Assembly: GCA_029882975.1 (NCBI GenBank)
Contig: JAOUJW010000042.1
Coordinates: 1-47,507 of the forward strand
Length of the DNA: 47,507 nucleotides
Direction: 5' to 3'
Source of the DNA: Gammaproteobacteria bacterium
Lineage (GTDB): Bacteria > Pseudomonadota > Gammaproteobacteria > SZUA-152
Shown here in pieces: positions 1,179-47,507 of this stretch (position 1 is its first letter; each line of letters begins with the position of its first letter). The notes below the pieces were generated by a model that made no database searches, was not told the DNA's origin, and saw nothing but the letters and a program-made list of their open reading frames with translations. Made by a program: the position numbers and the translations under genes.

Positions 1179-1711
1179 GGTTCCCGGCCTCTCTGGGTTT
1201 ACACGTGCAGGACATTTGGGGATTGGAAAACCTGCTGCCGGCTGACAGCCAGAATAATCACAGCACAAAACAACGATCTGGCGATCTCACGCCTGTCTGC
1301 TTGCGTTCGCCTCATGCAATCGCAATGACCGCATTCAAGGACCGAACAGGCATGGGTTTTAACGGCTGCTTATAGTTCCACCAACAAAATTCACTGCACT
1401 AGTTAAAAAATAATCAATTCGATCATTCTTATATTGGACCGGGTCCATTATTTATTTTTATATTTCTATAGTTTAATTTCACTAACTAAGATTACACATA
1501 GTTTGATAATAGCTCGATCTGAATTAGTGTCAATAGCGGAGACAATATTGAGATCTGTTTACTATTTAACCTGCAAAGAATTGAAAAGCCTCTTTAGCGC
1601 GAGGAGATTCACAGTGCAAGGAGATTGACTCGGCAGACGCTTGCTCGGTCAATCTCCAAATTGCGACGATGAAATCAACTGAAGTCACTTCGCTGTTGTC
1701 GCGACTGGCAC
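1179..1711. other. Intergenic region, no gene seen
   Basis: About 530 bases between two minus-strand genes. The 5' leader of the FimV-like gene lies at the left. The middle is AT-rich (about 1395-1600) and could hold its promoter. A 64-codon plus-strand frame at 1434-1628 has no ribosome site and no recognisable content. The only clear structure is the inverted repeat at 1620-1657. Confidence 0.5.
1620..1657 (-). terminator. Inverted repeat downstream of the PAD gene
   Basis: Perfect 10-bp arms ggagattgac (1620-1629) and gtcaatctcc (1648-1657) flank an 18-base loop, 55 bases past the PAD stop codon. There is no T-run, so if it ends transcription it is not a classical intrinsic terminator. 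Confidence 0.35.
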
Positions 1712-3649
1712 CTATATATCGTAACCGCCATCCGGCTTATATTCCCACCATAAGCGATTTCGGAAAGGCTTACGTTGTATATTGGTGCCACAATGTACTT
1801 CACCTAACATTTCATGATAGGAATACCAATCATCAATAAACACGACGGAGCGCTCCGGTACGGCATCCCGAAACGCTTGTTCAAAAGCGCACAGACCTTC
1901 AATGACCGGACCGTAGGGCTTGGGTACGATGCTGGTGTTGTCAATGACCAGGTGATTAACCATGTCTGGAAAATAAGCGACTGTCCGATTTGTACCTGCC
2001 GGGTGAAATAAAACCGGTATTTGTATGATGTGCCGATCGTCAACACCCAAGTTGCGTTTCAGAATCTCAATATTAGAATCCATATGATTTTGGTATTCCA
2101 TATTATCAAGCCAAAATCCTGTGTCATCCAGCAAGTCACTAACGGCTATCTCTGCGGATATGCCGCTGCCCGGCTCACCACGCATTCGTCCTTCAAACAA
2201 AGTACTACTGCCATAACCGGTAATTTTTAAACGTTCCAAAATAGCTTTGGCTCGTTGCGGTGAAGCAACCAACACTTCAAAGCCCACATCATTATTGGCC
2301 GGGACAAAACAGATAATTTCATCGGCATGCCCCACAGACAACCAGTCAGTGTATATCTCAAAGGGGGCCTGAACTTTTTGTGCATACAGAAACTTGCGTA
2401 ATTGCGGCATCATTTGACGGTTGGCTTCAGAATAGTCACCATACTTTTTTCCACCAAACACGATTCGTCCAAAAGGATAATAGCGTCCATTGACCGTTAC
2501 CGGTGGACTGACCTCCAAATTTCCGAAGGAATCCAGGGAATTGGGCCGGCTACCACCCACTTGAAAATGGCCGAAGTCAGGCCCCAGTAAAGCCCGCTCA
2601 GGAAAATCGTCCAGGCCTCGATCCCTGGGACTGTCCATCACGACGGGTAAAATATGGCTGCTTCCCTGAACATAACCGAATTCGATTTCATCCTGTATCC
2701 AGCGATCCCCCATGTGGTCTTGCGGCTCAATCACCGTCAAGGGCACACCCATCGTATCCAAGGCAGTGGCCAATCCATGAAGAAACCGTTCATTGCTGTT
2801 ACCGCCGTCTGCGATTCGACAGGTAAACACTCGCTCCGCCGCCAGGGTATTGGGTGTCATAATCCAGGGTGCCACTCTAAACACCATGGAATCCGTGGCC
2901 AAAACAGACCGTCCCTGGACCAATAACAACTCTAATGTAATCAGACCTTCAAAATTTGCGCCTGGGTATTCATGGGCTTCGATAAAATACTCTCCCCCTT
3001 TGATCGAAAGAGGTTCGGAACTCACCAGCGGAGCTTGCTCGCCTTTAGGATCTTTACCCAGGATTCTGACATAACTGCCATCGATGTCTTGCGCGTAAAC
3101 GGTAAAGCGAGCGGCCGATCCTTCCGTTGCAGTTAAGCTAAGGTAAACATTCTCTGGAAACGTATCCAATAAAGTGTCTTCAACTCTGAATTTAGACCAC
3201 TCGGAAAAATGTCCCAAGGCCGGATCAATCTCGGAAATGTCCAAATCATTGTTGACCAGTAATACCGCCCCTCTCTGACCGCTACCCCAAACCCAGGCTT
3301 CATTGCCGCTGTCTGCATGATCCACATCTCCATCACGATCACTGTCGTTTTTCAAGGAAACCCTACATACATCGGCCCTTATCTCCAAACGATCCTGTTC
3401 ATTGCCCTGCTCATCTACATTAACTAAGGTAGCGGAGTTTTTCCCGGCGGCGAGCGCTTGTATTCTGATCAAACCCTCATACGGCAACGGAACTGATACA
3501 GATTCATTTAGATTAAATTCTTTCCATTCGTTGTTCTGTACGTAATATATTTGCAGCCCGGATGCGTGTAACAACACCACATTACCTGTTTGCACATTGT
3601 AATTGATCCGGACACTTTCACCTCTGGACAAAAAATGATTTGATTGCAT
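1712..3649 (-). CDS. Peptidylarginine deiminase, animal-type three-domain PAD
   Basis: Converts peptidyl-arginine to citrulline with release of ammonia. The full PAD architecture is visible. Numbered from the longer start at 3679: an N-terminal beta domain (about 11-110), a PAD_M calcium-binding domain with NDSDRDGDVDHAD (111-123) and WGSGQRGAVLLVNND (131-145), and a C-terminal catalytic domain from about 285. Catalytic residues match vertebrate PAD4 as I recall it: D330 in WIQDEIE, H451 and D453 in SVGHADE, C630 in GEVHCGTN, and substrate arginines R352/R354 in DSPRDRGL. VFRVAPWIMTPNT and LDSFGNLEVSPPVTV are nearly identical to the human stretches. Start 3649 is preferred because AGGGAG lies 6 bases upstream and a TATAAT box at 3682-3687 would place the transcript start after the ATG at 3679. 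No signal peptide, so cytoplasmic and unlike secreted Porphyromonas PPAD. Neighbours give no clue to the target. Confidence 0.93.
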   Translation of the reverse strand: MQSNHFLSRGESVRINYNVQTGNVVLLHASGLQIYYVQNNEWKEFNLNESVSVPLPYEGLIRIQALAAGKNSATLVNVDEQGNEQDRLEIRADVCRVSLKNDSDRDGDVDHADSGNEAWVWGSGQRGAVLLVNNDLDISEIDPALGHFSEWSKFRVEDTLLDTFPENVYLSLTATEGSAARFTVYAQDIDGSYVRILGKDPKGEQAPLVSSEPLSIKGGEYFIEAHEYPGANFEGLITLELLLVQGRSVLATDSMVFRVAPWIMTPNTLAAERVFTCRIADGGNSNERFLHGLATALDTMGVPLTVIEPQDHMGDRWIQDEIEFGYVQGSSHILPVVMDSPRDRGLDDFPERALLGPDFGHFQVGGSRPNSLDSFGNLEVSPPVTVNGRYYPFGRIVFGGKKYGDYSEANRQMMPQLRKFLYAQKVQAPFEIYTDWLSVGHADEIICFVPANNDVGFEVLVASPQRAKAILERLKITGYGSSTLFEGRMRGEPGSGISAEIAVSDLLDDTGFWLDNMEYQNHMDSNIEILKRNLGVDDRHIIQIPVLFHPAGTNRTVAYFPDMVNHLVIDNTSIVPKPYGPVIEGLCAFEQAFRDAVPERSVVFIDDWYSYHEMLGEVHCGTNIQRKPFRNRLWWEYKPDGGYDI

Positions 3650-3812
3650 TGGACTCTCCCTGCTCCCCGATTCAGACATCTATTATACTGATCCCGGTTT
3701 ACTTTTAGTTTCGACCTACAGAATTATTTTCGCAAATTATCTCATCAGTGTTTATCAGAATCATTGCCGCTAACGTATAATGTACCTTTTTCCATGATCA
3801 ACGGACAGCTAT
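3650..3812. promoter_or_regulatory. Divergent promoter region for PAD and acyltransferase genes
   Basis: The two genes diverge from this 160-bp AT-rich gap. A TATAAT hexamer lies on the minus strand at 3682-3687 for the PAD gene, and another on the plus strand at 3776-3781, 32 bases before the acyltransferase ATG. Neither has a convincing -35 box. Confidence 0.4.
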
Positions 3813-4409
3813 ATGTACATCCCTGAACCCGGTGACAACCTACCCCGACGGGGCAATGCCTTCAGCAAATGGCTGGGACGCAGTATTTTGCGTCTTTGTC
3901 GCTGGCGTATTGAAGGGTCGTTTTGCCAATCACCCAAATTCGTAATTGTCATGGCGCCACACACTTCCTGGTGGGACTTTACCAACAACTTTGGTGTTTT
4001 ATTAGCAACCGGACTGCACGCCTCATGGTTCATAGCCAACAAATACACCAAAGGAATCATTGGCACCTTATTGGGCTACGTGGGAGCCATTCCGGTTGAA
4101 CGCAGTGAACGCACGGATATGGTTACCCAAATGGCCAATCAGTTTCACAACCACGACAGATTTTTACTGGCCATCTTTCCGGAAGGAACCCGCAAACCCG
4201 TACCCCACTGGAAAACCGGATTTTGGCATATCGCCAAAAAAGCACAAGTGCCCGTGCAATTGGTTGCTGTGGATTATCGTAAACGTGCCACCGTCTTCGG
4301 ACCGGTAATGGAATTGTCGGATAATGTGGACGCTGACATACAGCACATGCGTGAGTATTTCAGACCCGTTCTCGCCAAGCGGCCGGAAAAAGCCCTTTAC
4401 GACAACTGA
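3813..4409 (+). CDS. PlsC-like 1-acylglycerol-3-phosphate acyltransferase family protein
   Basis: 198-residue acyltransferase of the PlsC/LPLAT superfamily. The catalytic HX4D motif is H50-T-S-W-W-D55 and the substrate-binding motif FPEGTR is at 122-127, followed by a Lys/His-rich stretch. There is no long N-terminal membrane anchor, only amphipathic segments, and it is shorter than classical PlsC (about 245 residues), so it belongs to the short 'glycerol acyltransferase' group. It is likely to act at the inner membrane on lysophosphatidate or a related acceptor; the exact acceptor cannot be read from sequence. It stands alone, convergent with yaiI. Confidence 0.85.
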   Translation: MYIPEPGDNLPRRGNAFSKWLGRSILRLCRWRIEGSFCQSPKFVIVMAPHTSWWDFTNNFGVLLATGLHASWFIANKYTKGIIGTLLGYVGAIPVERSERTDMVTQMANQFHNHDRFLLAIFPEGTRKPVPHWKTGFWHIAKKAQVPVQLVAVDYRKRATVFGPVMELSDNVDADIQHMREYFRPVLAKRPEKALYDN

Positions 4410-4926: not shown

Positions 4927-5141
4927 TGTGTTATCCTCTACCAAACTCAAATAGTTCCTGCATCCTACCATCACCCAGCACCGATTCAAATAGCATCATA
5001 TTTATCTATTCTCCGAACCGTCTCAGGCCCTCCCAGGACATAGCGTAACTTCCGATATACTACAAATCCAGCCGATGTAAGCGATTGGAAAATATTCTAC
5101 GTATACTCTACGTGAAAAGAATCAACAAAAAGGCAGTTACC

Positions 5142-6512
5142 ATGAAATATCAACGCATACCTTCAGCAATATTGATTAATTTTCTTCTACTGTTCACCGC
5201 ATTGTTGTTTACTGCATCAGCAACCGCCGCCAACTTTGTATCGCTGGACGATCAATTTGCCAGAGTCGCAGATAAGGCCCCCGGATTTGGTGGCGTCTAC
5301 TTTGATGACTATGGCCGTCTCAATATTCACATAAAACCGGCCGGCCCTGAAATTTCGTCAGAAGAAAAGAAAGCAGTGTTAAGCAGTTTGCGCGCCGTAT
5401 TTGGCATCAACAGAATGAGTGCACCCATGGGCGCCGTCAAGGATCGCCTGCTGGTAAAGAAACCCACCAACACAGGCCCGATCTATCATAGCGCCGCCTA
5501 TGGTTTCAAGGACCTGCTCTCCTGGCGCAACGAAATTAGAACCAATATATTTAAAAAGCTTATACTAACGTTGGATATCAATGAATCCGAAAACCGAATA
5601 AGTATTGGCGTTCCTGATGTGGCTCGCTATAAAGCCAAACTGGAGTATGAACTCGCCGGACTGGGTATTCCGCTTCACGCAGTAATCATAGACCAAGGTA
5701 AAGTATTGATCCCTTACAATCACATGAATATGGAATTTTTTCCGGAAAAACAAGGGGGCATTCGCATTTCCAGGGTTGCAGACGGCAGAACCTTTGGTTG
5801 CACTATCGGATATAACAGCGCACGCCCATTCCTTTGGCTGAATATCGCCGGATTTGTTACTGCCGCACATTGTACTGAACAGCCAGGATCGGTTAGTGCA
5901 ACCACTTTCTTCCAACCGGACTCGCCTAACAACTCCGGAGTGGAAGAATTGGATCCCCCTTTCATCACACTTCCAGGATGCCCGCCGGGCATCACCTGCC
6001 GTTTAAGCGACTCCGCATATGTTAACTATGGAGGAATGCCAACGCGAACCGGTAGTGTCGCTAAAACCACGAATTGGCTGGCATCACGAGTCATTGACCA
6101 TAATTCTCCGGAGTTTACTGTAAGTGGATTTGTGTCTAACCAACTCGTTGGCGATGTCTTGGAAAAAGTCGGCCAAACCACAGGTTGGACAGTATCAAAA
6201 ATTGAATCCACTTGCTTTGACATTTTCGCCGGTCCACTTATGGACACCCTACTGTTGTGTCAAAACCAAACTTACCTGGAAAGCTACCCTGACATTAGAG
6301 ACAATCTGCGTATTTCAGCTACCGGCGACAGCGGCGCACCGGTTTTCTATTGGGACTTAAATACAGATGCTAAAATTGCCGGAATACTTATTGGCGGGAT
6401 AGCTGACAAAAACGATCCAACCCAACAGGACATTCGTCGGTATGTATACAGCCCGATCGGGAACATCATCAGTGAACTGGGAACAGCGGGAATTCCACTG
6501 CTCGCCCCCTAA
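5142..6512 (+). CDS. Secreted trypsin-like serine protease (S1 family) with propeptide-like N-domain
   Basis: 456-residue exported protease. A signal peptide covers about residues 1-30 (hydrophobic core, cleavage after ATAA). Residues 31-210 form an unrecognised domain, plausibly a propeptide as in alpha-lytic-protease-type enzymes. The catalytic domain has H243 in FVTAAHC, D290 in RLSDSAYV and S397 in ATGDSGAP, a complete triad; several cysteine pairs (C220/C244, C280/C286, C359/C373) suggest disulfides in an oxidising compartment. Start at 5142 has AGG 8 bases upstream; the longer frame from 5085 would bury the signal peptide. A terminator hairpin follows directly, so it is monocistronic. 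Substrate unknown. Confidence 0.88.
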   Translation: MKYQRIPSAILINFLLLFTALLFTASATAANFVSLDDQFARVADKAPGFGGVYFDDYGRLNIHIKPAGPEISSEEKKAVLSSLRAVFGINRMSAPMGAVKDRLLVKKPTNTGPIYHSAAYGFKDLLSWRNEIRTNIFKKLILTLDINESENRISIGVPDVARYKAKLEYELAGLGIPLHAVIIDQGKVLIPYNHMNMEFFPEKQGGIRISRVADGRTFGCTIGYNSARPFLWLNIAGFVTAAHCTEQPGSVSATTFFQPDSPNNSGVEELDPPFITLPGCPPGITCRLSDSAYVNYGGMPTRTGSVAKTTNWLASRVIDHNSPEFTVSGFVSNQLVGDVLEKVGQTTGWTVSKIESTCFDIFAGPLMDTLLLCQNQTYLESYPDIRDNLRISATGDSGAPVFYWDLNTDAKIAGILIGGIADKNDPTQQDIRRYVYSPIGNIISELGTAGIPLLAP

Positions 6513-7337: not shown

Positions 7338-7814
7338 TTAAGCGGCGTGGGGATAATCCACTTCGTAATGTTCTTCGGTGCCTTGTTCCTCAGGCAGTTC
7401 CTCGGATTGCTCAACGACAATCTCAGTCTCAGTCTTACTGAACAGTGCGGTAAGAGGTTCTACGCCTGCAATCGCAGCAAACACCGGATAAATACCCAGC
7501 AACGGCAGAACTGCCAAGTTACCCAATGGTGCAGTAACTACGTAAACGCTGCCGATAGCTGCTATTCCCACTGTTGCGGCAACAACGCGAACCGGCGTTG
7601 ACAGTTCGCCCTGAGAACCCAGTAGTGCTTTCAACGGGCTCCAGCCCGTAACTGCCGTAAACATGGGATAGATTGCCAATAGGGGCAGCAGGGCCAACCA
7701 GCCCAGTGGCGTTGCGGTTGTAGTCATGGTCACGCCGATCAATGTAGCACCCGCACCGACGCGAACAAGGCGTGAAACCGTGCTCAAATTACCTACTCGA
7801 TCTGAATTATTCAT
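7338..7814 (-). CDS. DUF2892 (YgaP membrane-domain) protein with internal duplication
   Basis: 158-residue inner-membrane protein with two copies of the DUF2892/YgaP-TM unit: residues about 15-68 (LPLLAIYPMFTAVTGWSPLKALLG) and about 72-128 (LPLLGIYPVFAAIAGVEPLTALF), each a pair of hydrophobic segments ending in the family's conserved P-L motif, with the usual Cys before it replaced by Ser or Glu. The C-terminal tail is acidic (about 30 residues). In E. coli YgaP this membrane unit is fused to a rhodanese domain; here a rhodanese-containing gene lies just upstream on the same strand, so the two may act as a split YgaP handling sulfane sulfur at the membrane. That link is an inference. Confidence 0.75.
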   Translation of the reverse strand: MNNSDRVGNLSTVSRLVRVGAGATLIGVTMTTTATPLGWLALLPLLAIYPMFTAVTGWSPLKALLGSQGELSTPVRVVAATVGIAAIGSVYVVTAPLGNLAVLPLLGIYPVFAAIAGVEPLTALFSKTETEIVVEQSEELPEEQGTEEHYEVDYPHAA

Positions 7815-8012
7815 GACATCCCCCTTTGTTGATGTGTGAAATCTTTCCTTATAGTAAGTAAAGCTCAGGGGGATGAAGCTTCTCTTACCGTTTTATTAAT
7901 TTTGGCTTAAGGTGAGTGACGGCCTCTCATTACATTTTATCCCTTTGTTTTAATTGGTTTATTATGTGGCGTTTCCGTTCGAAAACCGATCGGATTGGAA
8001 CTTATTTCTCCT

Positions 8013-9038
8013 TTAGGAAATTGAATCCTGCGGGACATTGCTCAATCCTCCATCTAAAACAAAGGCATCAATGTCATTTTGATTGAGCAGAAATGTTGCC
8101 ATCGAACTGAGTTTTTCCGTATCACAATAAACGACGTAGCGTTTACTTCGATCCAGCTTATTCAGTTTGGAGCGTAATAGAGGAAAAGGTACATTAACAC
8201 TGTTTTTTAAATGACGACTTTGGTATTCATTGGGCAATCTCACATCCAACCACACCAGATTGGGATCTGACATGATGTCGCTGTACTGGATGGACTTAAG
8301 TACCGGATCCCGCAACAACTCTTGAAAATCGTCTTTTTTCAAACGCATAAGGACGCCATCGGTCGTCATAACCACAGATGCATTTCGCTTGGAGTCGGAT
8401 ATAAGCGCTTCTTCACCAAAAAAAGAACCCACACCCAGCGTTGCCAGAACCAATCCGGTCGACGAAGACCGAGTTTGACGCACCACCTGGCACTGCCCCT
8501 TACGAATGATATAAAATGAATCTCCCTCACTTCCCTGATTAAATACCATTTGGCCGGATTTTACCGCTACTTCTTCCATGCGCATGAAAAACGACTGAAG
8601 GTTTAAAGGGGGTATTTTATGAAAAAGGCTGGATTGAAGGGTTTTGGTCATCCAGTCTTCATCTTCAAGTTCCTGCAATTCGATGCGACCCGACTGCTCT
8701 AAGGCTAACATATTGTCCAGTAAATCTGCATCCACACTTAAACAAACCAAATCGGTTTTCGCTTTAGCGGAACACTGCTGACGCTCCAATGGTAATTTGG
8801 AGTGTTTAGTCCCTCCCACAACAGAACGCGTCGGAGCACCCTTTTGAATAAGCTCTACCTCACCCTTTATGACGTAAAAAACCCGGCGACTTGCATCCTC
8901 AGCATTATATAAAGCCTGACCCGCTTTAGATTTGAGAATCCTGGATTTTGCTGCCAGTTCCTTACAATGATCCGGACTCAACGCCTTAATGGGAACCAAA
9001 TCGGAAAAAATCGCAGGATCTATAATCTTATTACTCAT
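8013..9038 (-). CDS. Two cyclic-nucleotide-binding domains plus rhodanese domain
   Basis: 341-residue cytoplasmic protein. Residues about 13-120 form a degenerate cNMP-binding domain (YVIKGEVELIQKG). Residues about 130-240 form a better-conserved one with EGDSFYIIRKGQ and the phosphate-binding cassette FFGEEALISDSKRNASV, including the Glu and Arg that contact cyclic nucleotide. Residues about 250-341 form a rhodanese domain (VWLDVRLPNEY, then CDTEKLSS with the catalytic Cys). This suggests sulfur transfer gated by a nucleotide or other small ligand. Start 9038 (ATG) is taken with GGTGAG 8 bases upstream; three in-frame GTG codons precede it. Neighbour of the DUF2892 membrane gene. Confidence 0.85.
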   Translation of the reverse strand: MSNKIIDPAIFSDLVPIKALSPDHCKELAAKSRILKSKAGQALYNAEDASRRVFYVIKGEVELIQKGAPTRSVVGGTKHSKLPLERQQCSAKAKTDLVCLSVDADLLDNMLALEQSGRIELQELEDEDWMTKTLQSSLFHKIPPLNLQSFFMRMEEVAVKSGQMVFNQGSEGDSFYIIRKGQCQVVRQTRSSSTGLVLATLGVGSFFGEEALISDSKRNASVVMTTDGVLMRLKKDDFQELLRDPVLKSIQYSDIMSDPNLVWLDVRLPNEYQSRHLKNSVNVPFPLLRSKLNKLDRSKRYVVYCDTEKLSSMATFLLNQNDIDAFVLDGGLSNVPQDSIS

Positions 9039-9197
9039 CACCACCACTCACCTATAGTCAGACTTTCTATCCTGCTGTTTCGTATTTTTTGGAGTAAATA
9101 AGCTGCTCAAAGTCACATATTTGTCAAATTCGATTGTCATCGCACAAAAAATGAGACTTATATCACTTTCTGCATTTCGGGAAAGCAAGCAGGGAGG

Positions 9198-10184
9198 TTA
9201 TTTGGCAGCGCAGACTTTGTTTTTACCCATTTTTTTTGCTTGGTACAACGCCGCATCTGCACGCTGAACCACATCTTGAGCCGAATCGCAATTATCAGTG
9301 ACTAGTGCAACACCGGAACTGATGGTTATTCTTATAGAATTGTGTTCGTTGGTAATTTCCAGTTCAGAAAGCAATTTTCGAATTCCTTCAGCGCAAGCCA
9401 TGGCTCCATCGTCACTGGTTTCCGGCAAAAGCAGTACAAACTCTTCACCACCGTAGCGGGCAACCAGATCGACATCACGCACGCTTTTTGTAATTAATTT
9501 GGTCACTGCAACCAACACTTGGTCACCAACCAAATGTCCGTAGGTATCATTAATTTGCTTAAAATCATCCAAATCAACAAACACAACCGAAAACCTTTTA
9601 CCGTAGCGTTTGGCTCGAACAAATTCCTGATTAAGCGCCTCCTGAAAATATCGATGATTGTAGGCGCCGGTAAGGCCATCTCTATTCACGAGGTTTTTCA
9701 ATCGGTTATTTGCTTTCACAAGTTGGATATTAAACTCTGACAACTGATCCAACAAATCGGCATTTTCTTTTACCAAAACACTTTTTTCATACGCGCGTTT
9801 AACCGCCATTGATATTACTTCAATATCATCAAACGGCTTGAGCACGTAATCATAAGCCCCGGCGCGTAGCGCAGAAACTGCGCTTTCGATGGACGCATGG
9901 CTGGTGATAATGATGATTTCAGCCGAACTGTTTATTTTTTTGATTTCACCAACGAGTTCCAGACCGCTCATTCCCCCCATGCGAATATCCGAGACCACTA
10001 ATGGAACCGCGTATTGTTCCATATAAGCCAAAGCTTCCTCTGCACTGGAAGCACCGATCACCTCATACCCTTCTTCCTCGAGAATTGAAGTAAGCAGTTC
10101 GACAATGTGAACCTCATCGTCGACAACTAGAACGCGTCTGTCGCTCAGAACTGTACGGGAAACATTGGCGCAGGCAGGATTCAC
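9198..10184 (-). CDS. Response regulator with GGDEF diguanylate cyclase output (PleD/WspR type)
   Basis: 328 residues. Receiver domain 15-130: acidic VDDE at 21-24, phospho-acceptor D66 in VVSDIRM, T94 and K116 in VLKPFDD. A helical linker (135-165) leads to a GGDEF domain (165-328) with the active-site GGEEF at 245-249, so it should make c-di-GMP from two GTP. The inhibitory I-site RDVD (236-239) sits the canonical five residues before GGEEF, giving product feedback. The start is a GTG without a good ribosome site, so it is uncertain. It follows the histidine kinase gene after 187 bases on the same strand and is its probable output. Confidence 0.92.
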   Translation of the reverse strand: MNPACANVSRTVLSDRRVLVVDDEVHIVELLTSILEEEGYEVIGASSAEEALAYMEQYAVPLVVSDIRMGGMSGLELVGEIKKINSSAEIIIITSHASIESAVSALRAGAYDYVLKPFDDIEVISMAVKRAYEKSVLVKENADLLDQLSEFNIQLVKANNRLKNLVNRDGLTGAYNHRYFQEALNQEFVRAKRYGKRFSVVFVDLDDFKQINDTYGHLVGDQVLVAVTKLITKSVRDVDLVARYGGEEFVLLLPETSDDGAMACAEGIRKLLSELEITNEHNSIRITISSGVALVTDNCDSAQDVVQRADAALYQAKKMGKNKVCAAK

Positions 10185-20984: not shown

Positions 20985-23900
20985 CTATTTTCCGCTGCTT
21001 GTGTATTGGTAGAGTTTCACACCGGTTATCCCCCCCCTTGCACTGTCCACAAATGCAGCTGCAGGAACCAATTCATCTCCCTGGTAGGCACCAATATTGT
21101 GAGTAAAAACACATTCTTCGTTTGTATTGCAGAGTCCGTCATCGTTTCCTATCAAGTCACCCATTATTTCATTCGCGTTTCTAAGTAAACCAGACGAACT
21201 TGTATCTGACCAACTGTGGTTGATAAATTCTTCGCCGGTTGGAATCACCAACGCGTGGTGTGCTACCGACATTCCGCCATCACCAGCATCTGCTGCATCC
21301 AGGCGCCAATCCCATATTCTTCCGTCCGTACGCCAAACTCCACCGTTTTGAATACACTGAGACTCCAGATAAGCATACGCTATATCGCAGGATGGAAACG
21401 GCCCCTGGCTGTTTATTGATGGATATGAATCTCCATCCAGCCCCCAACTACGAAATCTGTTTTCGAAATTTACCCAATCGGTAATGGTTGCTAAATCAGT
21501 GCTTCCATTTATATCAGAAATATTCACAATATCATCGATAACGACTTTGCCTACAAATGTTCCGCTGATGTTTATACCGGTTTTTAATGTAGCATCCGAT
21601 AACTGTCCGGAATACACATTGGATCCGTCTATTCCCGTATCGGTACAGGATGCTGTAATAACACCAGGAGCGACTCCGGTACCTTCGACCAGACAGTCAA
21701 CATCAGTATTACCTCCAATTTTAAGAACTCCCGTAAAGTAGTTATTGGAGGCACTTCCTACTAATATGCCATGACGTGAGTTATTTGCAGCCACCAGGTT
21801 TAATGTAGTTGTTTCGTTCGAGTTGTTAGCTATCAAAAACGATGTGTAGTTGTTTACAGCAAGAACATTCATAAAAATATTATTAGGGGACTCACTAAGA
21901 TCTATTCCACTCAATCTATTTGAAACTATGGTTGCATTGATGAACCGATTATCGGCTGACCGAATGAGCCTAACCCCGCCTCCATCGGAACTGCTCCCGT
22001 TATCATTATGCGCCGCAACCAGACCGGTAAAATTATTGTTATTTGCATCAACCAAGTAAATACCTGAGTTTCCACTATTGGTTGATATAACATCTATAGC
22101 TGTGTTGTAGGACGAATTATTCAATACAAGACCATGTGACGGTGAATTTCCTATGCGCAAGCCATTAATTATATTATCGCGACTGTTTTGCAAAATAACG
22201 TTGCCAAAACCACCTACCTGCAAGTTACTAACCTGCGTAGAACGGATAACTGAGTTAGTAACGTTTTCCCACAAGATAGAATTGCTATTATTGACACCAT
22301 CAATTTTTCCCTCGAACCACAGATATTGGTATCCATTTGCATAGAAGGCAGCACCAACTCCGGCCCCGACCATGTCTACCCCAGGTTGAACGACCACTCC
22401 AATTTTATTCGCGTCTATTGAATAGTTTGCATAGGGCGTCAGCGTAATGATAAAAATAGATCCCTCTGAAAATAGCGAACCACCGGCGTTTGCGGCAACG
22501 ATAGGATTGTTCCACCATATACCACTTGGAGTTTTTGCCAACATGTTAGCAGATTGATAAATTGTAACGGAATTGGTTCGCCAATCCTGAATCGAAAAGT
22601 CTATCAAAGTCGACAAAGAAGCTCCCTTTCTTAAGCTGGTCGAAATAACACTTATTCCGCCGACCTTTTCTGCGCAACGCCAGTTAAAAGCATTTAGATC
22701 ATCCGAGGCTATTATATCTGTACAGCTCTGAACGCCATCCACAAATACTTCACGCAATTCGCCACCATGAAGACAACTGGTATAAGAATCTCGCAATCCA
22801 TCGCAAACGGAATCTACCAATGAAAAACCGTCGTTTCCTGTATAATTCACATAATCATTCCAATTAGCGCCGTTTACCGGATACAATGCCGTAACGTTCG
22901 GACACACAACAGCAATATCAAGAACTTCAGCCGATGCAATAGTTCCCGCACCGTTCACCACCAAGCACCGTTGTGTACTGGTAATGGGTTGGGAACTTAT
23001 GGTGACATTGTAAGGGGTCAAATCGTGTACTAGAGAACTAAAAACATAGGGACCACCATTACCGGTAATAATCAGATCATCGACACCATTATTTTGCAGC
23101 GTCAAAACTGCCCCGGTTTCTAATCCAGAGACAACCACACCAACCCTAAATGTTGAACACGAAATCACTACTGATGTTATGGCGTCACCAACAACATCAC
23201 CTGTACCATTAATGACTGCACATGTTTGGTTTGGCGCTGATGGTTCTGTTAAAACATTAACCTGATAGGTACTGCCTGAAAGCAACGCAGTGGCAAAAGT
23301 AAACACACCATCCGCTGAAATACTCAAATCATCCCCACCGTTATTTTGCAAAACCAAACCGGCACCCATCAGCCCGGTGACGGTGCCGCCGATGGTATAG
23401 GTATTCGTGGTACAGCTAACCCCGATGGTTTGAATATTCTGCCCCAACACCGATCCACTACCGTCGGACACGGTACATGTTTGACTGGGTAAGGTGGGCT
23501 GGGCAATTGCCGTCACATTGTAACCGGCGCCAGATGCAATCGCGGTGGTAAACGCAAAACTGCCGTCAGCGGATATGGGCAGATCGTCGCCGTTGTTATT
23601 TTGTAATACCAAGCCGGTACCCATCAGGCCGGTGACGGTGCCGCCGACGGTATAGGTATTCGTGGTACAGCTAACCCCGATGGTTTGAATATTCTGCCCC
23701 AACACCGATCCACTACCGTCGGACACGGTACATGTTTGACTGGGTAAGGTGGGCTGGGCAATTGCCGTCACATTGTAACCGGCGCCAGATGCAATCGCGG
23801 TGGTAAACGCAAAACTGCCGTCAGCGGATATGGGCAGATCGTCGCCGTTGTTATTTTGTAATACCAAGCCGGTACCCATCAGGCCGGTGACGGTGCCGCC

Positions 23901-24515
23901 GACGGTATAGGTATTCGTGGTACAGCTAACCCCGATGGTTTGAATATTCTGCCCCGCCACTGAGCCGTTTGCACCGGACACGGTGCATGTTTGACTGGGT
24001 AAGGTGGGCTGGGCAATTGCCGTCACATTGTAACCGGCGCCAGATGCAATCGCGGTGGTAAACGCAAAACTGCCGTCAGCGGATATGGGCAGATCGTCGC
24101 CGTTGTTATTTTGTAATACCAAACCGGAACCTTCCAGTCCAGTTACGGTTCCTCCTACGAAAAAGGTGTTAGTAACACAAGTTACCAAAATGGAATCAAC
24201 CTGTTGAACAGCGACACCGTTACCTTCAGTCACAGTACAAGTTTGGCTCGGATCAGTAGGTTGTGCAAAAACAGTTACGTCGTATGTCCCACCTGCTGTT
24301 ACTGCTTGGGAAAAAATAAAACTTCCATTATTTGCAACGAGCAAATCGTCACCTCCATTGTTCTGCAGAACAACGGAAGCCGCTTCACTCAAACCCGTAA
24401 CCGTGCCTCCAATCTGATACCTTTGCAGTTCCTCTTCATCTGAGCTACAGCCAGAAACAATCGCGCTCAAAAGCAGAATCAAGATTGGTATTTTTACAAC
24501 ATGTAGAGATTTCAT
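20985..24515 (-). CDS. Large lipoprotein with six ~85-residue repeats and a beta-helix domain
   Basis: 1176 residues. A lipoprotein signal (ILILLLSAIVSGC, lipobox VSGC) is followed by six repeats of about 85 residues (about 32-535), each opening GGTVTGL...VLQNNxGDDL and closing with a Cys-containing strand, so they look like Ig/Big-type modules with a conserved Cys pair (SQTC ... VSC). Residues about 545-650 are Cys-rich, then about 760-960 is Asn/Ser-rich with the ladder spacing of a right-handed parallel beta-helix (SYNTAIDVIST, NNNNFTGLVAAHND, ADNRFINATIVSN). Likely a surface-displayed adhesin or polysaccharide-binding protein. Repeats 2-4 are nearly identical at DNA level. CAGGTGA upstream of 24515 supports the start. 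Confidence 0.8.
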   Translation of the reverse strand: MKSLHVVKIPILILLLSAIVSGCSSDEEELQRYQIGGTVTGLSEAASVVLQNNGGDDLLVANNGSFIFSQAVTAGGTYDVTVFAQPTDPSQTCTVTEGNGVAVQQVDSILVTCVTNTFFVGGTVTGLEGSGLVLQNNNGDDLPISADGSFAFTTAIASGAGYNVTAIAQPTLPSQTCTVSGANGSVAGQNIQTIGVSCTTNTYTVGGTVTGLMGTGLVLQNNNGDDLPISADGSFAFTTAIASGAGYNVTAIAQPTLPSQTCTVSDGSGSVLGQNIQTIGVSCTTNTYTVGGTVTGLMGTGLVLQNNNGDDLPISADGSFAFTTAIASGAGYNVTAIAQPTLPSQTCTVSDGSGSVLGQNIQTIGVSCTTNTYTIGGTVTGLMGAGLVLQNNGGDDLSISADGVFTFATALLSGSTYQVNVLTEPSAPNQTCAVINGTGDVVGDAITSVVISCSTFRVGVVVSGLETGAVLTLQNNGVDDLIITGNGGPYVFSSLVHDLTPYNVTISSQPITSTQRCLVVNGAGTIASAEVLDIAVVCPNVTALYPVNGANWNDYVNYTGNDGFSLVDSVCDGLRDSYTSCLHGGELREVFVDGVQSCTDIIASDDLNAFNWRCAEKVGGISVISTSLRKGASLSTLIDFSIQDWRTNSVTIYQSANMLAKTPSGIWWNNPIVAANAGGSLFSEGSIFIITLTPYANYSIDANKIGVVVQPGVDMVGAGVGAAFYANGYQYLWFEGKIDGVNNSNSILWENVTNSVIRSTQVSNLQVGGFGNVILQNSRDNIINGLRIGNSPSHGLVLNNSSYNTAIDVISTNSGNSGIYLVDANNNNFTGLVAAHNDNGSSSDGGGVRLIRSADNRFINATIVSNRLSGIDLSESPNNIFMNVLAVNNYTSFLIANNSNETTTLNLVAANNSRHGILVGSASNNYFTGVLKIGGNTDVDCLVEGTGVAPGVITASCTDTGIDGSNVYSGQLSDATLKTGINISGTFVGKVVIDDIVNISDINGSTDLATITDWVNFENRFRSWGLDGDSYPSINSQGPFPSCDIAYAYLESQCIQNGGVWRTDGRIWDWRLDAADAGDGGMSVAHHALVIPTGEEFINHSWSDTSSSGLLRNANEIMGDLIGNDDGLCNTNEECVFTHNIGAYQGDELVPAAAFVDSARGGITGVKLYQYTSSGK
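23370..24125 (-). repeat. Three near-identical 255-bp tandem repeats inside the lipoprotein gene
   Basis: The string gtattcgtggtacagctaac recurs at 23401, 23656 and 23911, exactly 255 bases (85 codons) apart. Units agree almost base for base until about 24120, where similarity drops. Differences cluster in a short segment that changes SDGSGSVLG to SGANGSVAG. Recent duplication or ongoing gene conversion is implied. Confidence 0.92.
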
Positions 24516-43493: not shown

Positions 43494-46400
43494 TTATTCC
43501 GACAATTTCAACAAATCAAATACAATCCGTGCAAACCCCTTGGCTTTTTCGGGATCGGATAGTAATTGCATCATCTGGTTTTGGTGTGCTTCGCTGCTGT
43601 CCATTACGGCTTCATCAACGGCTTTGTGGAAATCGCCTAACATGGCCTGTTCGGCTGTGTTGTTGGCAATCTGGTTCATGACTAATTCGTTTTCTCTTAC
43701 CTTGTCCCTGATCGTGTAGGCGTAATTCACCAAATCTTTGTCTGTTAACTGGTCGGTGATAAACAGTTCATTCAAGCGTTGGATGATTTGCGAGAGAAAT
43801 TCTTCCTTTCTGTCACGGGGCTTTGCAGTGCCGAGGCCTTCTCCTGGTTTTAAATACTCCCCTTCTCCATCTCGAAGATTGAGATCCTGCTGTTTTATTT
43901 TTGATAGGCGGTAGTGGCTCATTACCACATTGGTCAGGTCTATTTCATCATCCTCAATCAAGGATTCACGCAGCATGGGCCGTAGGTTACGCGCGTACAA
44001 GCTCAGTTTTTCTAATTCTTTATTGTCATAATCGACTATCTGAGACATGAACTCGTAGAAACGGACAAAGGTTCCCAAATCCTTTTTGAATATTTCCAGT
44101 GCATCCTTTTCCTGCTTGCAAGCCTTAAAGCTATTCTCGGCATTGGCTATCAGCACCGCATCCTTGGTCTTCTTAGTGCGCTCAAACATCTCCTTGGCTT
44201 GTTTGTAGGCGGCTACAGCAGACTTATAGCGTTTTTGCCAACGTTCTACAGCGGGCTTACAAATGTTGGCGATAGCGGCATTGCTTTTGTTCTTTGTATA
44301 AAAAGCCACGCAAAACTGTTCTACCTCTTGCCAGGTAAATATTCTGGTGGCACGCAGTTTGTCGAATAGGTCAAATATCAGGTTCGGGTCGGATACGTCA
44401 TCCAGTTCTGCGGTTTGGTAATAGGGTTTGAACGCGGCAAGAATATCATCCGGCTCATTGAAGAAATCGAGAATGTAAGTGCCCGTCTCGGCCTTGCCGG
44501 GATAGGTACGATTCAGGCGCGACAGGGTTTGTACACATTCCACACCGCCCAGCTTTTTATCCACATACATGGCAACGAGTTTGGGTTGATCAAAACCGGT
44601 CTGGAATTTGTTGGCAACGATCATCACTCTGTAATCGTCCGTATCAAAGGCCTTGCGCATATCTCGGCCCTTGAGGTCCGGGTTCATGTTGGTCTCGGTA
44701 AACTTCTCACCCAACAAACCTTCCGGGTTTGTGGTCGCTCCCGGCGTCCTGCCTCCCGCGACATTGATACTTCCCTGTATGGCATCCTTTTCATTAAATT
44801 CCACCTCACCGGAAAAGGCCACCATGGCATGTATTGTCTCATACCCCGGCTTATCTGACTTTTGAGCAATATACTTATCAAAACCCAATTTGTAACGCAC
44901 CGCCTCCTTGCGTGAACTGGTCACCACCATGGCCTTGGCCTGCCCTCCCAGTAGGCCCATCACATTATTCTTAAAGTGTTCAATAATCACCTGCACCTTT
45001 TGCGCAATATTGTAATCATGCAGGCGCACCCATTGATTAAGTTTGACCTGGGCCTTTTTGCTTTCCACTTCCTGATCGCTGGCAGCTATTTTCATCGCCA
45101 GGTTATAGGCCACCTTGTAATTGGTGTAGTTCTTTAACACATCCAGAATAAAGCCTTCCTCAATCGCCTGTCGCATACTATATACATGGTATGACTCTGG
45201 CTTATTGGTTTTGGAAGGTGGTTCATCCGGATTGGGTACACGACCAAACAGTTCCAGGGTTTTGGTTTTGGGCGTGGCGGTAAAGGCGAAATAACTTAGA
45301 TTCTTGGTTGCCCGGCGTGAGGCAACGGCGGCATCCAGAATATCCTCTGAACCCAGCTCTTCTTCATCACCCTCTTTGGCATCCAGCATAAGAACTTCTT
45401 TCAACTGCCGTGCGGTGGAGCCAGACTGAGAAGAATGGGCCTCATCGGCAATAATGGCGTAATGCCGTTCTTTTAAACTGACATTGTCCTCAATCGCCTT
45501 TAACACATAGGGAAAGGTCTGGATGGTGACAATAATAATCGGCTGCGAGGCCTCCAGGGCCAGCGCAAGTTTTTCTGACTTGGAACCCTCCCCTTCTTTG
45601 CGATTGATACGCCCAACGGCACCATCGGCATGTTCAAACTGGTTAATGGTGTCCTGTAATTGATCATCCAATACAGTTCGGTCTGTCACCACAATCACGG
45701 AATTAAACAGTTTGTTGCCCTGCTCATCATAAAGTGCGGATAACTGATGCGCCGACCAGGCGATGGAATTGGATTTGCCGGAACCGGCACTGTGTTGAAT
45801 CAGGTATTTGTGGCCAGGGCCTTCACGGTGGGCCGCACTTACCAGTTTATTAACCACATCCCATTGATGATAACGGGGAAAGATCAGGGTTTCTTTTTTA
45901 TATTTTCGCCCATTCCAATCCTCTTTTTCTTCAATCTGCAAATGCACAAACCGGGCGAGGATCTTTAACAGATTATCGGGCAATAACACCTCATTCCATA
46001 AATAATCCGTGGCGTACTGGTTCACATCCTCTGGCACATCATTCCCTGCACCGCCCTCTTTAGTACCTTTGTTAAAGGGTAAGAAGTAAGTCTCATCCCC
46101 TTCCAGTCGGGTCGTCATATAGACTTCATATTGACTCACCGCAAAATGCACCAGGGCACCACATTTAAAGGTTAATAAGGGTTCCGGCTTTTTAGTGATC
46201 GGGTCAATGCCGAAGCGGGTGGTTTTGTATTGCTTAATGGCATTTTCGACGGCCTGTTTGAATTCTGACTTCAATTCCATGGTGGCCACGGGCAGACCAT
46301 TCACAAACAACACCAGATCAATACGCCAGGCCTTTGCGCTTTTAGCCCCCTCTCCCCCGGCGGGAGAGGGCTGGGGTGAGGGGGAAGCCCATGGTGAATA

Positions 46401-46817
46401 GACCAACTCTGGCACAACCCGCAGACGATTCTTCTCATAACGCGCAAGGGTATCGGGGTTTAGATCATGCTCGGGTTTAAACTGACACAGGCTAAAGCGA
46501 GTGCCACGATCCCGTAACTCATGGCGCAATACACCCAGCGTACCAAAGGTACGTAGCTCAGTATTCGCCGCGTTGGGGTCCGCCTTGTTGAGCTGAGTAG
46601 CAACACGCTCTAAAAATTTTTCTTCGGGATTGTTAGGGTATAAAGAACAGAACTTCTGCCATTGCTCATCCTGGGTTTCTTGAACAAAGCCCAGTAAATC
46701 CTCAGAATACAAAGCCAGTTCACGGTTATAGTTTTCTGGCTTGCCGAGCAACCAACCATTGGCAAGTAATTGTTGAATCATATCGTTTTGGAATGTGAAT
46801 TCATTTTCCTTGCCCAT
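43494..46817 (-). CDS. hsdR: HsdR, type I restriction enzyme motor/nuclease subunit
   Basis: 1107 residues. The nuclease motif is D167 with E181-L-K183 (RIDLVLFVNGLPVATMELKS). The SF2 motor has Walker A SAGSGKS (343-349), DEAH 458-461 and TAT 513-515, and motif VI region QTLSRLNRTYPGK. It cuts DNA after translocation when the HsdMS complex finds unmethylated target. Two repeat elements are inserted in frame: SPSPQPSPAGGEG at about 145-157, just before the catalytic D167, and AGGRTPGATTN at about 685-700. AGGGGAG precedes the ATG. hsdS lies upstream; hsdM is not in the window. Confidence 0.94.
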   Translation of the reverse strand: MGKENEFTFQNDMIQQLLANGWLLGKPENYNRELALYSEDLLGFVQETQDEQWQKFCSLYPNNPEEKFLERVATQLNKADPNAANTELRTFGTLGVLRHELRDRGTRFSLCQFKPEHDLNPDTLARYEKNRLRVVPELVYSPWASPSPQPSPAGGEGAKSAKAWRIDLVLFVNGLPVATMELKSEFKQAVENAIKQYKTTRFGIDPITKKPEPLLTFKCGALVHFAVSQYEVYMTTRLEGDETYFLPFNKGTKEGGAGNDVPEDVNQYATDYLWNEVLLPDNLLKILARFVHLQIEEKEDWNGRKYKKETLIFPRYHQWDVVNKLVSAAHREGPGHKYLIQHSAGSGKSNSIAWSAHQLSALYDEQGNKLFNSVIVVTDRTVLDDQLQDTINQFEHADGAVGRINRKEGEGSKSEKLALALEASQPIIIVTIQTFPYVLKAIEDNVSLKERHYAIIADEAHSSQSGSTARQLKEVLMLDAKEGDEEELGSEDILDAAVASRRATKNLSYFAFTATPKTKTLELFGRVPNPDEPPSKTNKPESYHVYSMRQAIEEGFILDVLKNYTNYKVAYNLAMKIAASDQEVESKKAQVKLNQWVRLHDYNIAQKVQVIIEHFKNNVMGLLGGQAKAMVVTSSRKEAVRYKLGFDKYIAQKSDKPGYETIHAMVAFSGEVEFNEKDAIQGSINVAGGRTPGATTNPEGLLGEKFTETNMNPDLKGRDMRKAFDTDDYRVMIVANKFQTGFDQPKLVAMYVDKKLGGVECVQTLSRLNRTYPGKAETGTYILDFFNEPDDILAAFKPYYQTAELDDVSDPNLIFDLFDKLRATRIFTWQEVEQFCVAFYTKNKSNAAIANICKPAVERWQKRYKSAVAAYKQAKEMFERTKKTKDAVLIANAENSFKACKQEKDALEIFKKDLGTFVRFYEFMSQIVDYDNKELEKLSLYARNLRPMLRESLIEDDEIDLTNVVMSHYRLSKIKQQDLNLRDGEGEYLKPGEGLGTAKPRDRKEEFLSQIIQRLNELFITDQLTDKDLVNYAYTIRDKVRENELVMNQIANNTAEQAMLGDFHKAVDEAVMDSSEAHQNQMMQLLSDPEKAKGFARIVFDLLKLSE
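44736..44761. repeat. Mosaic-repeat fragment inside hsdR
   Basis: 26 bases matching 34854-34879 (copy A) at 22 positions: cgctcccg-cctcctg-ctc-cgcga pattern. On the minus strand it encodes VAGGRTPGA. It lies where HsdR homologues normally pass straight from the SGEVEFNEKD region to GLLGEKFTE. Confidence 0.65.
46345..46390. repeat. Palindromic ccctctccc/gggagaggg repeat inside hsdR
   Basis: 9-bp arms ccctctccc (46348-46356) and gggagaggg (46362-46370), followed by ctggggtgaggg. This is the common dispersed repeat that reads SPQPSPAGGEG when in frame. Here it adds about 15 codons to hsdR without breaking it. Confidence 0.9.
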
Positions 46818-46830
46818 ATCAATCTCCCCT

Positions 46831-47022
46831 CTAATTCCCGAAACGATAATTCAACAATTTTTGATGAATGATGTGCAGGGATGCACGAATGCCACGAGCG
46901 CATGGATACGCAGGAGCGGCCATGTCGTTTTGAAAAACGAACTCGGTAGACTTGCCTACATGGATGTAGGTACTTGGGATTTGTCGGGAACAAAATCCCG
47001 TGTCACCACCGTAGTAATTCAT
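46831..47022 (-). repeat. Mosaic-repeat block between hsdS and hsdR (63-codon frame)
   Basis: A frame opens at the ATG overlapping the hsdS stop and ends before hsdR, but its content is built from palindromes: gtgcagggatgcac (46872-46885), cctacatggatgtagg (46955-46970) and gggaacaaaatccc (46986-46999). They belong to the same CATCCATG-type family as the blocks near the vapC genes. Probably not a real protein; the ATGA overlap may keep ribosomes moving to hsdR. Confidence 0.6.
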
Positions 47023-47415
47023 GCCACTGCTTCCTTATGGTTTTTAGTTTGTTCTGGTGCCTGCCAATTTCGGAGATCGATTTTTCCAGTGACTGCGGCT
47101 GAGATCAGGGCTATTCGGCGTTCTTGCATTAACTTGATAGCCTTTTCCGCACTTGATATTAATGCTTCGTATTTAGTCTTTAGCTTATCAACCTCACTCA
47201 GTATTTCTTGTATTTCTTCTGGTGGGGGAATAGTTACCTCAAAATTAAGAAACAAAGGTAGTCTTAGTGAATCAACAGTTGACTTAGCCTGTCCTGCCAT
47301 AGCGACTTTGTAAAAATTCTGTTCCAAATAATTAAACATAAATCTACCTGTCACATGTCGAAAATTATTCAACATATAAAGAGTTATGATCATTTCTGGT
47401 GTATGAGCACCTAGA
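47019..47415 (-). CDS. hsdS: HsdS specificity subunit, C-terminal part only
   Basis: The C-terminal end of a type I specificity subunit: the end of a target-recognition domain (RFMFNYLEQNFYKVAMAGQAKSTVDSLRLPLFLNFEVTIPPPEEIQEI) and the final coiled coil (LSEVDKLKTKYEALISSAEKAIKLMQERRIALISAAVTGKIDL). HsdS proteins are about 400 residues; about 130 remain before similarity stops near 47415, where an insertion sequence seems to begin. HsdS chooses the DNA site for both methylation and cutting, so this locus is probably inactive unless the rest lies intact beyond the element. Confidence 0.8.
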
Positions 47416-47507
47416 AAGGGTGGCGTGCCCTTTGTTGTATAATTGTTTTCGCTGAAAAACAAACGACAAAGGAAGCACACCACATGAGCAAAGATAATGT
47501 TATTGAA
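47416..47507 (+). mobile_element. Left end of an insertion sequence with transposase start
   Basis: From about 47416 (gggtggcgtgccctttgttg) the sequence no longer fits hsdS. After 68 bases an ATG at 47484 with AAGGAAG upstream opens a plus-strand frame MSKDNVIE that runs off the window. This opening resembles IS256-family transposases as I remember them. The gggtggcgtgcc end would be the terminal inverted repeat. Family is uncertain because only eight residues are visible. Confidence 0.45.

Follow-up and report, generated by a model that had tools for sequence, protein, structure and literature searches.

The subject of this study is a stretch of DNA of 47,507 nucleotides (the window; contig JAOUJW010000042.1 of a gammaproteobacterial assembly), which carries on its minus strand, at positions 1712-3649, a gene for an animal-type peptidylarginine deiminase (PAD) of 645 amino acids. 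The open reading frame (ORF) is uninterrupted over 1712-3679 on that strand, and when it is read from the ATG at 3679, the longer alternative start, the protein has 655 amino acids. We prefer the start at 3649, because a Shine-Dalgarno-like AGGGAGAG (3654-3661, minus strand, read from the sequence) sits four bases upstream of this ATG, and because the homologue from Bowmanella begins at the residue matching it, with a stop codon three codons earlier. Residue numbers in this text (D330, C630, etc.) count from 3679, i.e., they belong to the 655-residue form, and all features of the gene given below lie on the minus strand.

The ORF is confirmed as an intact protein of the PAD family. The catalytic domain PAD_C (Pfam PF03068; residues 260-646, positions 1742-2902) scores 417.9 bits against a curated cut-off of 25, and PAD_M (PF08527; residues 106-254, positions 2918-3364) scores 60.2 bits (cut-off 24.8). 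A sequence search of the PDB matched 27 distinct sequences, every one of which is a PAD; the best match was human PAD1 (E = 2.1e-115, over residues 104-647), followed by PAD2-4 (1e-103 to 1e-106) and PAD6 (1e-69 to 1e-75), and the identity to human PAD1, 2 and 4 is 38-40% across domains M and C (M+C). The catalytic residues named in the first-pass annotation of this DNA align with those of human PADs, namely D330 (2690-2692), H451 and D453 (2321-2329) and the nucleophile C630 (1790-1792), as do the substrate residues R352 and R354, while the stretches which it had described as nearly identical to human PADs, VFRVAPWIMTPNT and LDSFGNLEVSPPVTV, are found letter for letter in human PAD4. It had also taken the protein to be of the animal type and not of the PPAD type, and this agrees with the search for PAD_porph (PF04371), in which, with an E limit of 5, the window protein had no match (the Bowmanella homologue reached 16.6 bits, below the cut-off of 25). 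The PPAD of Porphyromonas gingivalis likewise makes protein citrulline, but it evolved independently, as the accessible text of PMC9174705 has it. The catalytic D, H, D and C are kept in all nine members of the lineage to which the window PAD belongs (see below), and PAD_M was detected by Pfam in each of the four members scanned (the window, L002, L005 and L008) and in neither of two two-domain PADs (L013 and L041, E up to 1).

Contamination by animal DNA was considered and ruled out, given the identity to human PADs stated above, the intact ORF, an assembly contamination estimate of 0.34%, and the base composition; the guanine-cytosine (GC) content of the gene is 0.473 and that of its third codon positions (GC3) 0.471, which is within the range of 12 other genes of the window (0.42-0.55). 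The assembly gave no match for 16S rRNA, while its nearest kin and, by eye, its genes suggest a gammaproteobacterium. A promoter search was uninformative (5 found, 4.7 expected). Between the PADs of Bowmanella and Vibrio, the ratio of nonsynonymous to synonymous rates (dN/dS) equals 0.03-0.05 at dS values of 1.7-2.5, which are near saturation; in archaeal pairs it is 0.18-0.28, and pairs including the window PAD are saturated. There is, therefore, purifying selection between two members of the lineage (Bowmanella and Vibrio), which argues that this PAD works in its hosts.

Calcium sites and the N-terminal domain

The site numbers follow PAD2, and the residues are otherwise assigned to the ions partly by the general scheme for PAD calcium sites. 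We set the numbering by fitting D125 and E131 to the text of PMC8826395. The DxDxDG loop of site 6 is intact in the window protein (D112, D114, D116 and D120 in DSDRDGDVD, positions 3320-3346, aligned with PAD2 D123, D125, D127 and E131). By alignment, the residues of site 1 (Ca1: Q329, E333, F385, L388 and E389) and of site 2 (Ca2: E331, D349, S350 and D353, the first three corresponding to PAD2 E352, D370 and S371) are also preserved; D349, S350 and D353 lie together with the substrate residue R352 at 2621-2635. The calcium-switch residue D368 (2576-2578) aligns with PAD2 D389, in a column whose placement varies with the alignment in other groups.

The loop of sites 3-5 (N143 to E160, positions 3200-3253) is shortened; the equivalents of N154 and D156 are kept, there is no D at the position of D177, and D180 is replaced by E. 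This means that the calcium-type loop of PAD_M previously claimed for this protein holds for DxDxDG and only in part for sites 3-5. When the loop was compared by length, from PAD2 N154 to residue 186, it counted 24 residues in eight of nine lineage members (19 in L008), 33 in all three human sequences, 31-34 in all 13 three-domain cyanobacterial rows, 32 in 12 of 13 two-domain cyanobacterial rows (40 in L051), 49-52 in the three Streptomyces/Embleya rows and 16 in the Campylobacteraceae row. D is missing at the D177 position in every lineage member (one alignment shows a gap there, the larger one E in four of the nine), and all nine have E for D180. Since D177 is variable in cyanobacteria too (D in only 8 of 13 rows), its absence is a difference which does not prove that calcium binding is lost.

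The animal type is marked most cleanly by Ca2. The equivalents of E352 and D370 are present in all nine lineage members, all three human and all 13 three-domain cyanobacterial rows (25/25 together), and in none of the 13 two-domain cyanobacterial and three Streptomyces rows (0/16), with the Campylobacteraceae row having E and N. The calcium switch D389 is called exclusive in the accessible text of PMC8826395; however, in our larger alignment the column is not diagnostic, as D is found in 8 of 13 two-domain cyanobacterial and two of three Streptomyces rows, while 5 of 13 three-domain cyanobacterial rows have another residue.

In the position of PAD_N (3356-3649, to residue 108), a beta-sandwich is predicted. 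The N-terminal 108 residues were folded with counterparts from six kin, and the model has a mean predicted local distance difference test (pLDDT) score of 86.8. In a Foldseek search of the PDB, PAD2 ranked first (E = 3.9e-05) and the first 24 rows were all PADs; in VIA-align, human PAD2 was also the best, with Z = 10.9 and a root-mean-square deviation (rmsd) of 2.5 A over 98 residues (9-108 on 11-119), in the right order and position. PAD1 and PAD3 gave Z of about 9.3-9.8, and PAD4 only 7.3-8.1, close to unrelated rows (amebosin 7.9). Thus, from the three PAD domains claimed earlier, PAD_M and PAD_C are seen by Pfam, and PAD_N is likely present by predicted fold and place, with no sequence or profile support. 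The full-length model aligns with PADs end to end (Z 22.5-25.1 and rmsd 9.7-12.1 A in the 50 rows listed; residues 8-634 on PAD4 10-652 with Z = 24.6 and rmsd 11.1 A), which we take as a coarse fold match only.

A rare and scattered lineage

Distribution was determined by a PF03068 search of sampled genomes. The family is found in one of two genomes of the window's own genus, one of 24 of its order and one of 369 of its class, the one always being the window's genome, and the phylogenetic check foreseen earlier does not place the window PAD in a common proteobacterial clade. In the order of Bowmanella, 1 of 394 genomes was over the cut-off and two more were below it; the Campylobacterota class gave 1/200, the order Methanophagales 3/53 and a sample of its phylum 2/196. 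In the cyanobacterial class, PF03068 is present in 27 of 388 genomes, with 13 matches at approx. 472-535 bits, 12 at approx. 186-242 bits and two fragmentary ones. One of the 13 high scorers, L038, is a three-domain PAD interrupted by stops, i.e., a decaying copy; among the 13 two-domain cyanobacterial PADs (L039-L051), the catalytic Cys is Ser in four and the His is replaced in three, and pseudo-enzymes seem to exist there. One scan of 84,980 species genomes, in which relatives were sought by short peptides of the window protein and distant members are under-sampled, gave 11 named related loci. Four plasmid records (three Streptomyces, one Embleya) carry a PAD with 26.5-28.2% identity. No relative was found in viral contigs and phages, nor in PHROGs at E up to 0.01, and a phage or viral origin was rejected on these searches.

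The trees were built from 545 M+C columns with 42 rows (quick) and 33 rows (careful) and rooted on two-domain rows; the careful trees omit six of 13 two-domain cyanobacterial rows and all three Streptomyces rows. Dropped were L016-L026, which duplicate named loci, L038 because of its stops, the fragments L052-L055, L056 and L057 as scoring under the cut-off, and the fourth plasmid match, L063. The trees were re-run without L012, a long Campylobacteraceae row, and the re-run tree on PAD_C alone also left out L008 and L009. The window PAD groups with Bowmanella and Vibrio amylolyticus (support 100/100), and these are joined by three Methanophagales, Paenibacillus, Pseudorhodoferax and Endobugula with 90/98 in the careful tree and with 99 in the Shimodaira-Hasegawa-like approximate likelihood ratio test (SH-aLRT) of the quick tree; without L012, the support on M+C is again 90/98. 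This nine-member lineage is rare and scattered. The whole animal type is separated from the two-domain rows with 100/100. Human rows and L012 join at 82/61, which we do not trust. L012 itself (7629-9662 of its locus) is a very divergent PAD of unsure place in the tree, adjoining a gene that by eye resembles phosphatidylserine decarboxylase.

One Methanophagales PADI (RCV64870.1) was judged to be a misbinned cyanobacterial sequence in the accessible text of PMC8826395. We found three Methanophagales records with a PAD (L004-L006; prefixes QENH, WSZT and QENJ; isolates CONS3730 twice and GLR107), whose proteins are 94-97% identical to each other, 56-58% to the window PAD and 37-42% to cyanobacterial rows (M+C). 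The order 335-residue unknown gene, TGL transglutaminase, PAD is common to all three, except that in L006 the 335-residue gene is cut off by the end of the contig. The TGL gene lies directly upstream of the PAD (L004:6620-9926, L005:3642-6955, L006:350-3644) with gaps of 308-388 bases, and in L005 the transglutaminase matches PF20085 with 322.8 bits. The block is preceded by ksgA in L004 and L005; after the PAD there is a dihydroorotate dehydrogenase gene in L004 and a fragment resembling it in L006, while the L005 contig ends soon after the PAD. These contigs are metagenome-derived and 7-20 kb long. The L004 contig has an FmdE-domain gene and the L006 contig a gene for EMC3_TMCO1, which is known from archaea and eukaryotes; no marker of this kind was seen among the scanned genes of the L005 contig. 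The GC content of the PAD agrees with its flanks in L004 (0.437 vs. 0.436/0.423) and L006 (0.435 vs. 0.443/0.432), and more poorly downstream of the PAD in L005 (0.382). Three syntenic copies which belong to this lineage are no longer well explained by misbinned cyanobacterial DNA. TGL is present in four of 74 genomes searched, namely the three PAD-bearing Methanophagales and Paenibacillus (two partial matches); within the 53 Methanophagales genomes it occurs in exactly the three PAD carriers and in none of the other 50. The probability of such co-occurrence by chance is 1 in 23,426 if genomes are independent, which related genomes are not.

The neighbours of the window PAD are a gene for a protein with weak TPR matches, an acyltransferase-domain gene and a YaiI-family gene. 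No mobile gene adjoins it among the neighbours scanned, and flanking repeats of 18 bases or more, as expected around an insertion, were not found in 1200-4000. In Vibrio amylolyticus, genes for a phage-type CI repressor, CII, a replicase, RadC and a group II intron maturase are all found no more than about 8 kb away from the PAD, and in Bowmanella a DNA methylase gene is found 361 bases upstream of the PAD. The scattered distribution together with such settings points to a spread of the lineage by horizontal transfer, the transfers and their direction being what we infer. In Paenibacillus amylolyticus (L007:49-6693), the N-domain part of the PAD is not readable in one frame, and PADLOC reports the candidate defence proteins PDC-M54A (1452.8 bits) and PDC-S39 (488 bits) upstream. 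A role of the PAD in defence was rejected, since the PAD itself has no PADLOC match and the Paenibacillus neighbourhood is an isolated case.

Function and origin

In our opinion, the gene probably encodes a leaderless, calcium-dependent and intracellular peptidylarginine deiminase, a member of a third and rare lineage of the animal type which was spread by horizontal transfer. Binding of calcium to the PAD_M and PAD_C sites would complete the active-site cleft; the thiol of C630 would then attack the guanidinium group of arginine, ammonia would be lost and hydrolysis would give citrulline, with H451 as the acid/base and D330 and D453 holding the guanidinium. These steps and roles are those of human PADs. 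A cyanobacterial three-domain PADI is active and calcium-dependent, as described in the accessible text of PMC8826395. An intracellular location is probable because no leader is apparent by eye, unlike in 8 of the 13 two-domain copies; the enzyme may act at raised calcium, for example, speculatively, after membrane damage.

Phylogenetically, the 13 cyanobacterial three-domain rows form their own clade (96/99), and in the best trees the window PAD stays outside the clade of cyanobacteria and animals, which is not significant when L012 is included. In the approximately unbiased (AU) test with all rows, the grouping of human and cyanobacterial rows was not found but also not rejected (p = 0.53). 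Without L012, this grouping has 92/95 on M+C, and on PAD_C alone it reaches 99/98. Identities (M+C) are 41-49% for human vs. cyanobacterial rows, 37-43% for human vs. lineage, 35-44% for lineage vs. cyanobacterial rows and 43-97% inside the lineage. In our reading, the third lineage would be the sister group of animal and cyanobacterial PADs together, whose joint clade is upheld once L012 is taken out, with the exact branching order remaining conditional on these trees.

Several results weigh against the interpretation proposed here. The loop of calcium sites 3-5 is altered and its sites are only partly kept. Pfam gives no PAD_N match in the window protein, although this is also the case in four cyanobacterial three-domain PADs scanned and, in the accessible text of PMC8826395, in the published ones. 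A profile-profile comparison with 13 cyanobacterial N domains gave a probability of only 0.4% (100 column-shuffled controls: mean 0.3%, highest 9.6%), and the unrelated beta-sandwich 4lba (Z = 10.5) ties with PAD2. The catalytic core is poorly modelled in the full-length prediction, which has a mean pLDDT of 68, residues 323-392 being under 50. Animals are represented by three human sequences, with human PAD3, PAD6 and all fungal PADs left out. With all rows, neither a clade of lineage and cyanobacteria (p = 0.13) nor one of lineage and human (p = 0.20) is rejected by AU, and the latter survives on M+C without L012 (p = 0.09); the branching order is, therefore, significant only with one long-branch row omitted, and on PAD_C alone the monophyly of the lineage is weak (79/68).

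The alternative that survives best, to which we would still give rather little weight, is that the enzyme is active but takes free arginine, peptides or some other guanidino compound as its substrate in place of proteins, or that it does not depend on calcium. The change of the 3-5 loop in all nine members speaks for this, and so does the lack of an evident substrate or partner gene beside the window PAD, as nothing but generic signalling domains and a TetR-like regulator recurs when its neighbourhood is compared with those of 14 other PAD loci. On the other hand, Ca1, Ca2, the switch residue and R352/R354 are kept as in PADs acting on proteins, and the archaeal copies adjoin a protein-modifying transglutaminase.

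A cyanobacterial source, with the PAD and its relatives in archaea and Proteobacteria acquired from cyanobacteria and placed within or next to their three-domain PADs, is unlikely. The overall architecture is the same, and the joint clade passes the AU test while L012 is present, but the cyanobacterial rows form a clade of their own, and a tree which moves the Methanophagales rows out of the lineage and over to the cyanobacteria is rejected even with all rows (p = 6e-47). Furthermore, the joint clade is rejected without L012 on M+C (p = 0.014) and on PAD_C alone (p = 0.016), and the lineage is less similar to cyanobacterial rows than its members are to each other or than human rows are to cyanobacterial ones. 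The reverse transfer, an animal PAD captured by bacteria, we regard as more doubtful still: the linker motif VFRVAPWIMTPNT is identical to that of human PAD4 and a lineage and human clade was not rejected on M+C, but on PAD_C alone, where animals and cyanobacteria group so strongly, it is rejected (p = 0.026), and human rows are closer to cyanobacteria than to the lineage. An ordinary two-domain bacterial PAD, as in actinobacteria and other bacteria, is very improbable: the accessible text of PMC8826395 counts 69 proteobacterial species with PADI and describes the PADIs of other bacteria as two-domain, but the Ca2 residues, the detectability of PAD_M, the linker and the tree all place the window PAD with the animal type, and the 13 two-domain proteins inspected either start, by eye, with a signal- or membrane-anchor-like stretch shortly before PAD_M (eight) or have long extensions (five).

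Compared with known systems, the closest is cyanoPADI of Cyanothece sp. 8801 (Clade Ai, PMC8826395), which like the window PAD has PAD_M and PAD_C, an N domain invisible to Pfam, the catalytic residues, Ca2 and no leader by eye. The window PAD differs in its separate lineage (38-42% identity to the 13 cyanobacterial rows, M+C), its shorter 3-5 loop and the hosts of its lineage, which are Proteobacteria, archaea and a Paenibacillus. Vertebrate PAD1-PAD4 share with it the whole-length fold alignment, catalytic residues, Ca1, Ca2, switch and linker motif, but PAD1 and PAD4 lack the site 6 residues which it keeps, and it lacks D177 of sites 3-5. The two-domain bacterial and fungal PADI (Streptomyces plasmid and cyanobacterial copies) have PAD_C in common with it and, in intact copies, the catalytic residues, whereas they lack Ca2 (0/16 rows) and a Pfam-detectable PAD_M (two scanned), and many have a leader or anchor.

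Three-domain PADs are, in the accessible text of Cummings 2021 (PMC8826395), limited to animals and late-diverging cyanobacteria, where the type is said to have emerged. The open-access literature, as far as its accessible text goes, describes no third PAD lineage and no accepted archaeal PAD, while some proteobacterial sequences may sit in supplementary trees under another label. The window PAD does bear on the history from cyanobacteria to animals, as suggested in the first-pass annotation, not merely as a gammaproteobacterial copy but as a part of a separate lineage with archaea and a Paenibacillus. The grouping of animals and cyanobacteria is not overturned by it; what the lineage calls into question is the proposed origin of the animal type in late cyanobacteria. 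To hypothesize, and only tentatively, calcium-switched three-domain citrullination could be an old and mobile module of Bacteria and Archaea and not a late-cyanobacterial invention, with animals and cyanobacteria as one branch of it, and in the Methanophagales, which are anaerobic methanotrophic archaea of group 1 (ANME-1), it could be paired with a transglutaminase, the two enzymes forming a cassette which modifies and cross-links proteins on a calcium trigger. Such a pairing would have a parallel in vertebrate skin, where the two enzyme types share protein substrates. Being found in Proteobacteria and archaea, a third lineage would provide the leading account of animal citrullination with a close outgroup, push back the origin of the Ca2 architecture and reverse the published dismissal of the archaeal copy. 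Its members also represent natural variation in the calcium loop, and its culturable hosts make the role of bacterial citrullination testable by gene removal.

Elsewhere in the window, there is a secreted-looking protein of 475 amino acids with trypsin-like motifs (TAAHC, GDSGAP) and no Pfam match at 5085-6512, and a lipoprotein-like protein of 1176 amino acids at 20985-24515 in which a unit of about 80 residues recurs several times nearly unchanged (by eye). A type I restriction R subunit is found at 43494-47483, with a specificity-like fragment (by eye) at the contig end.

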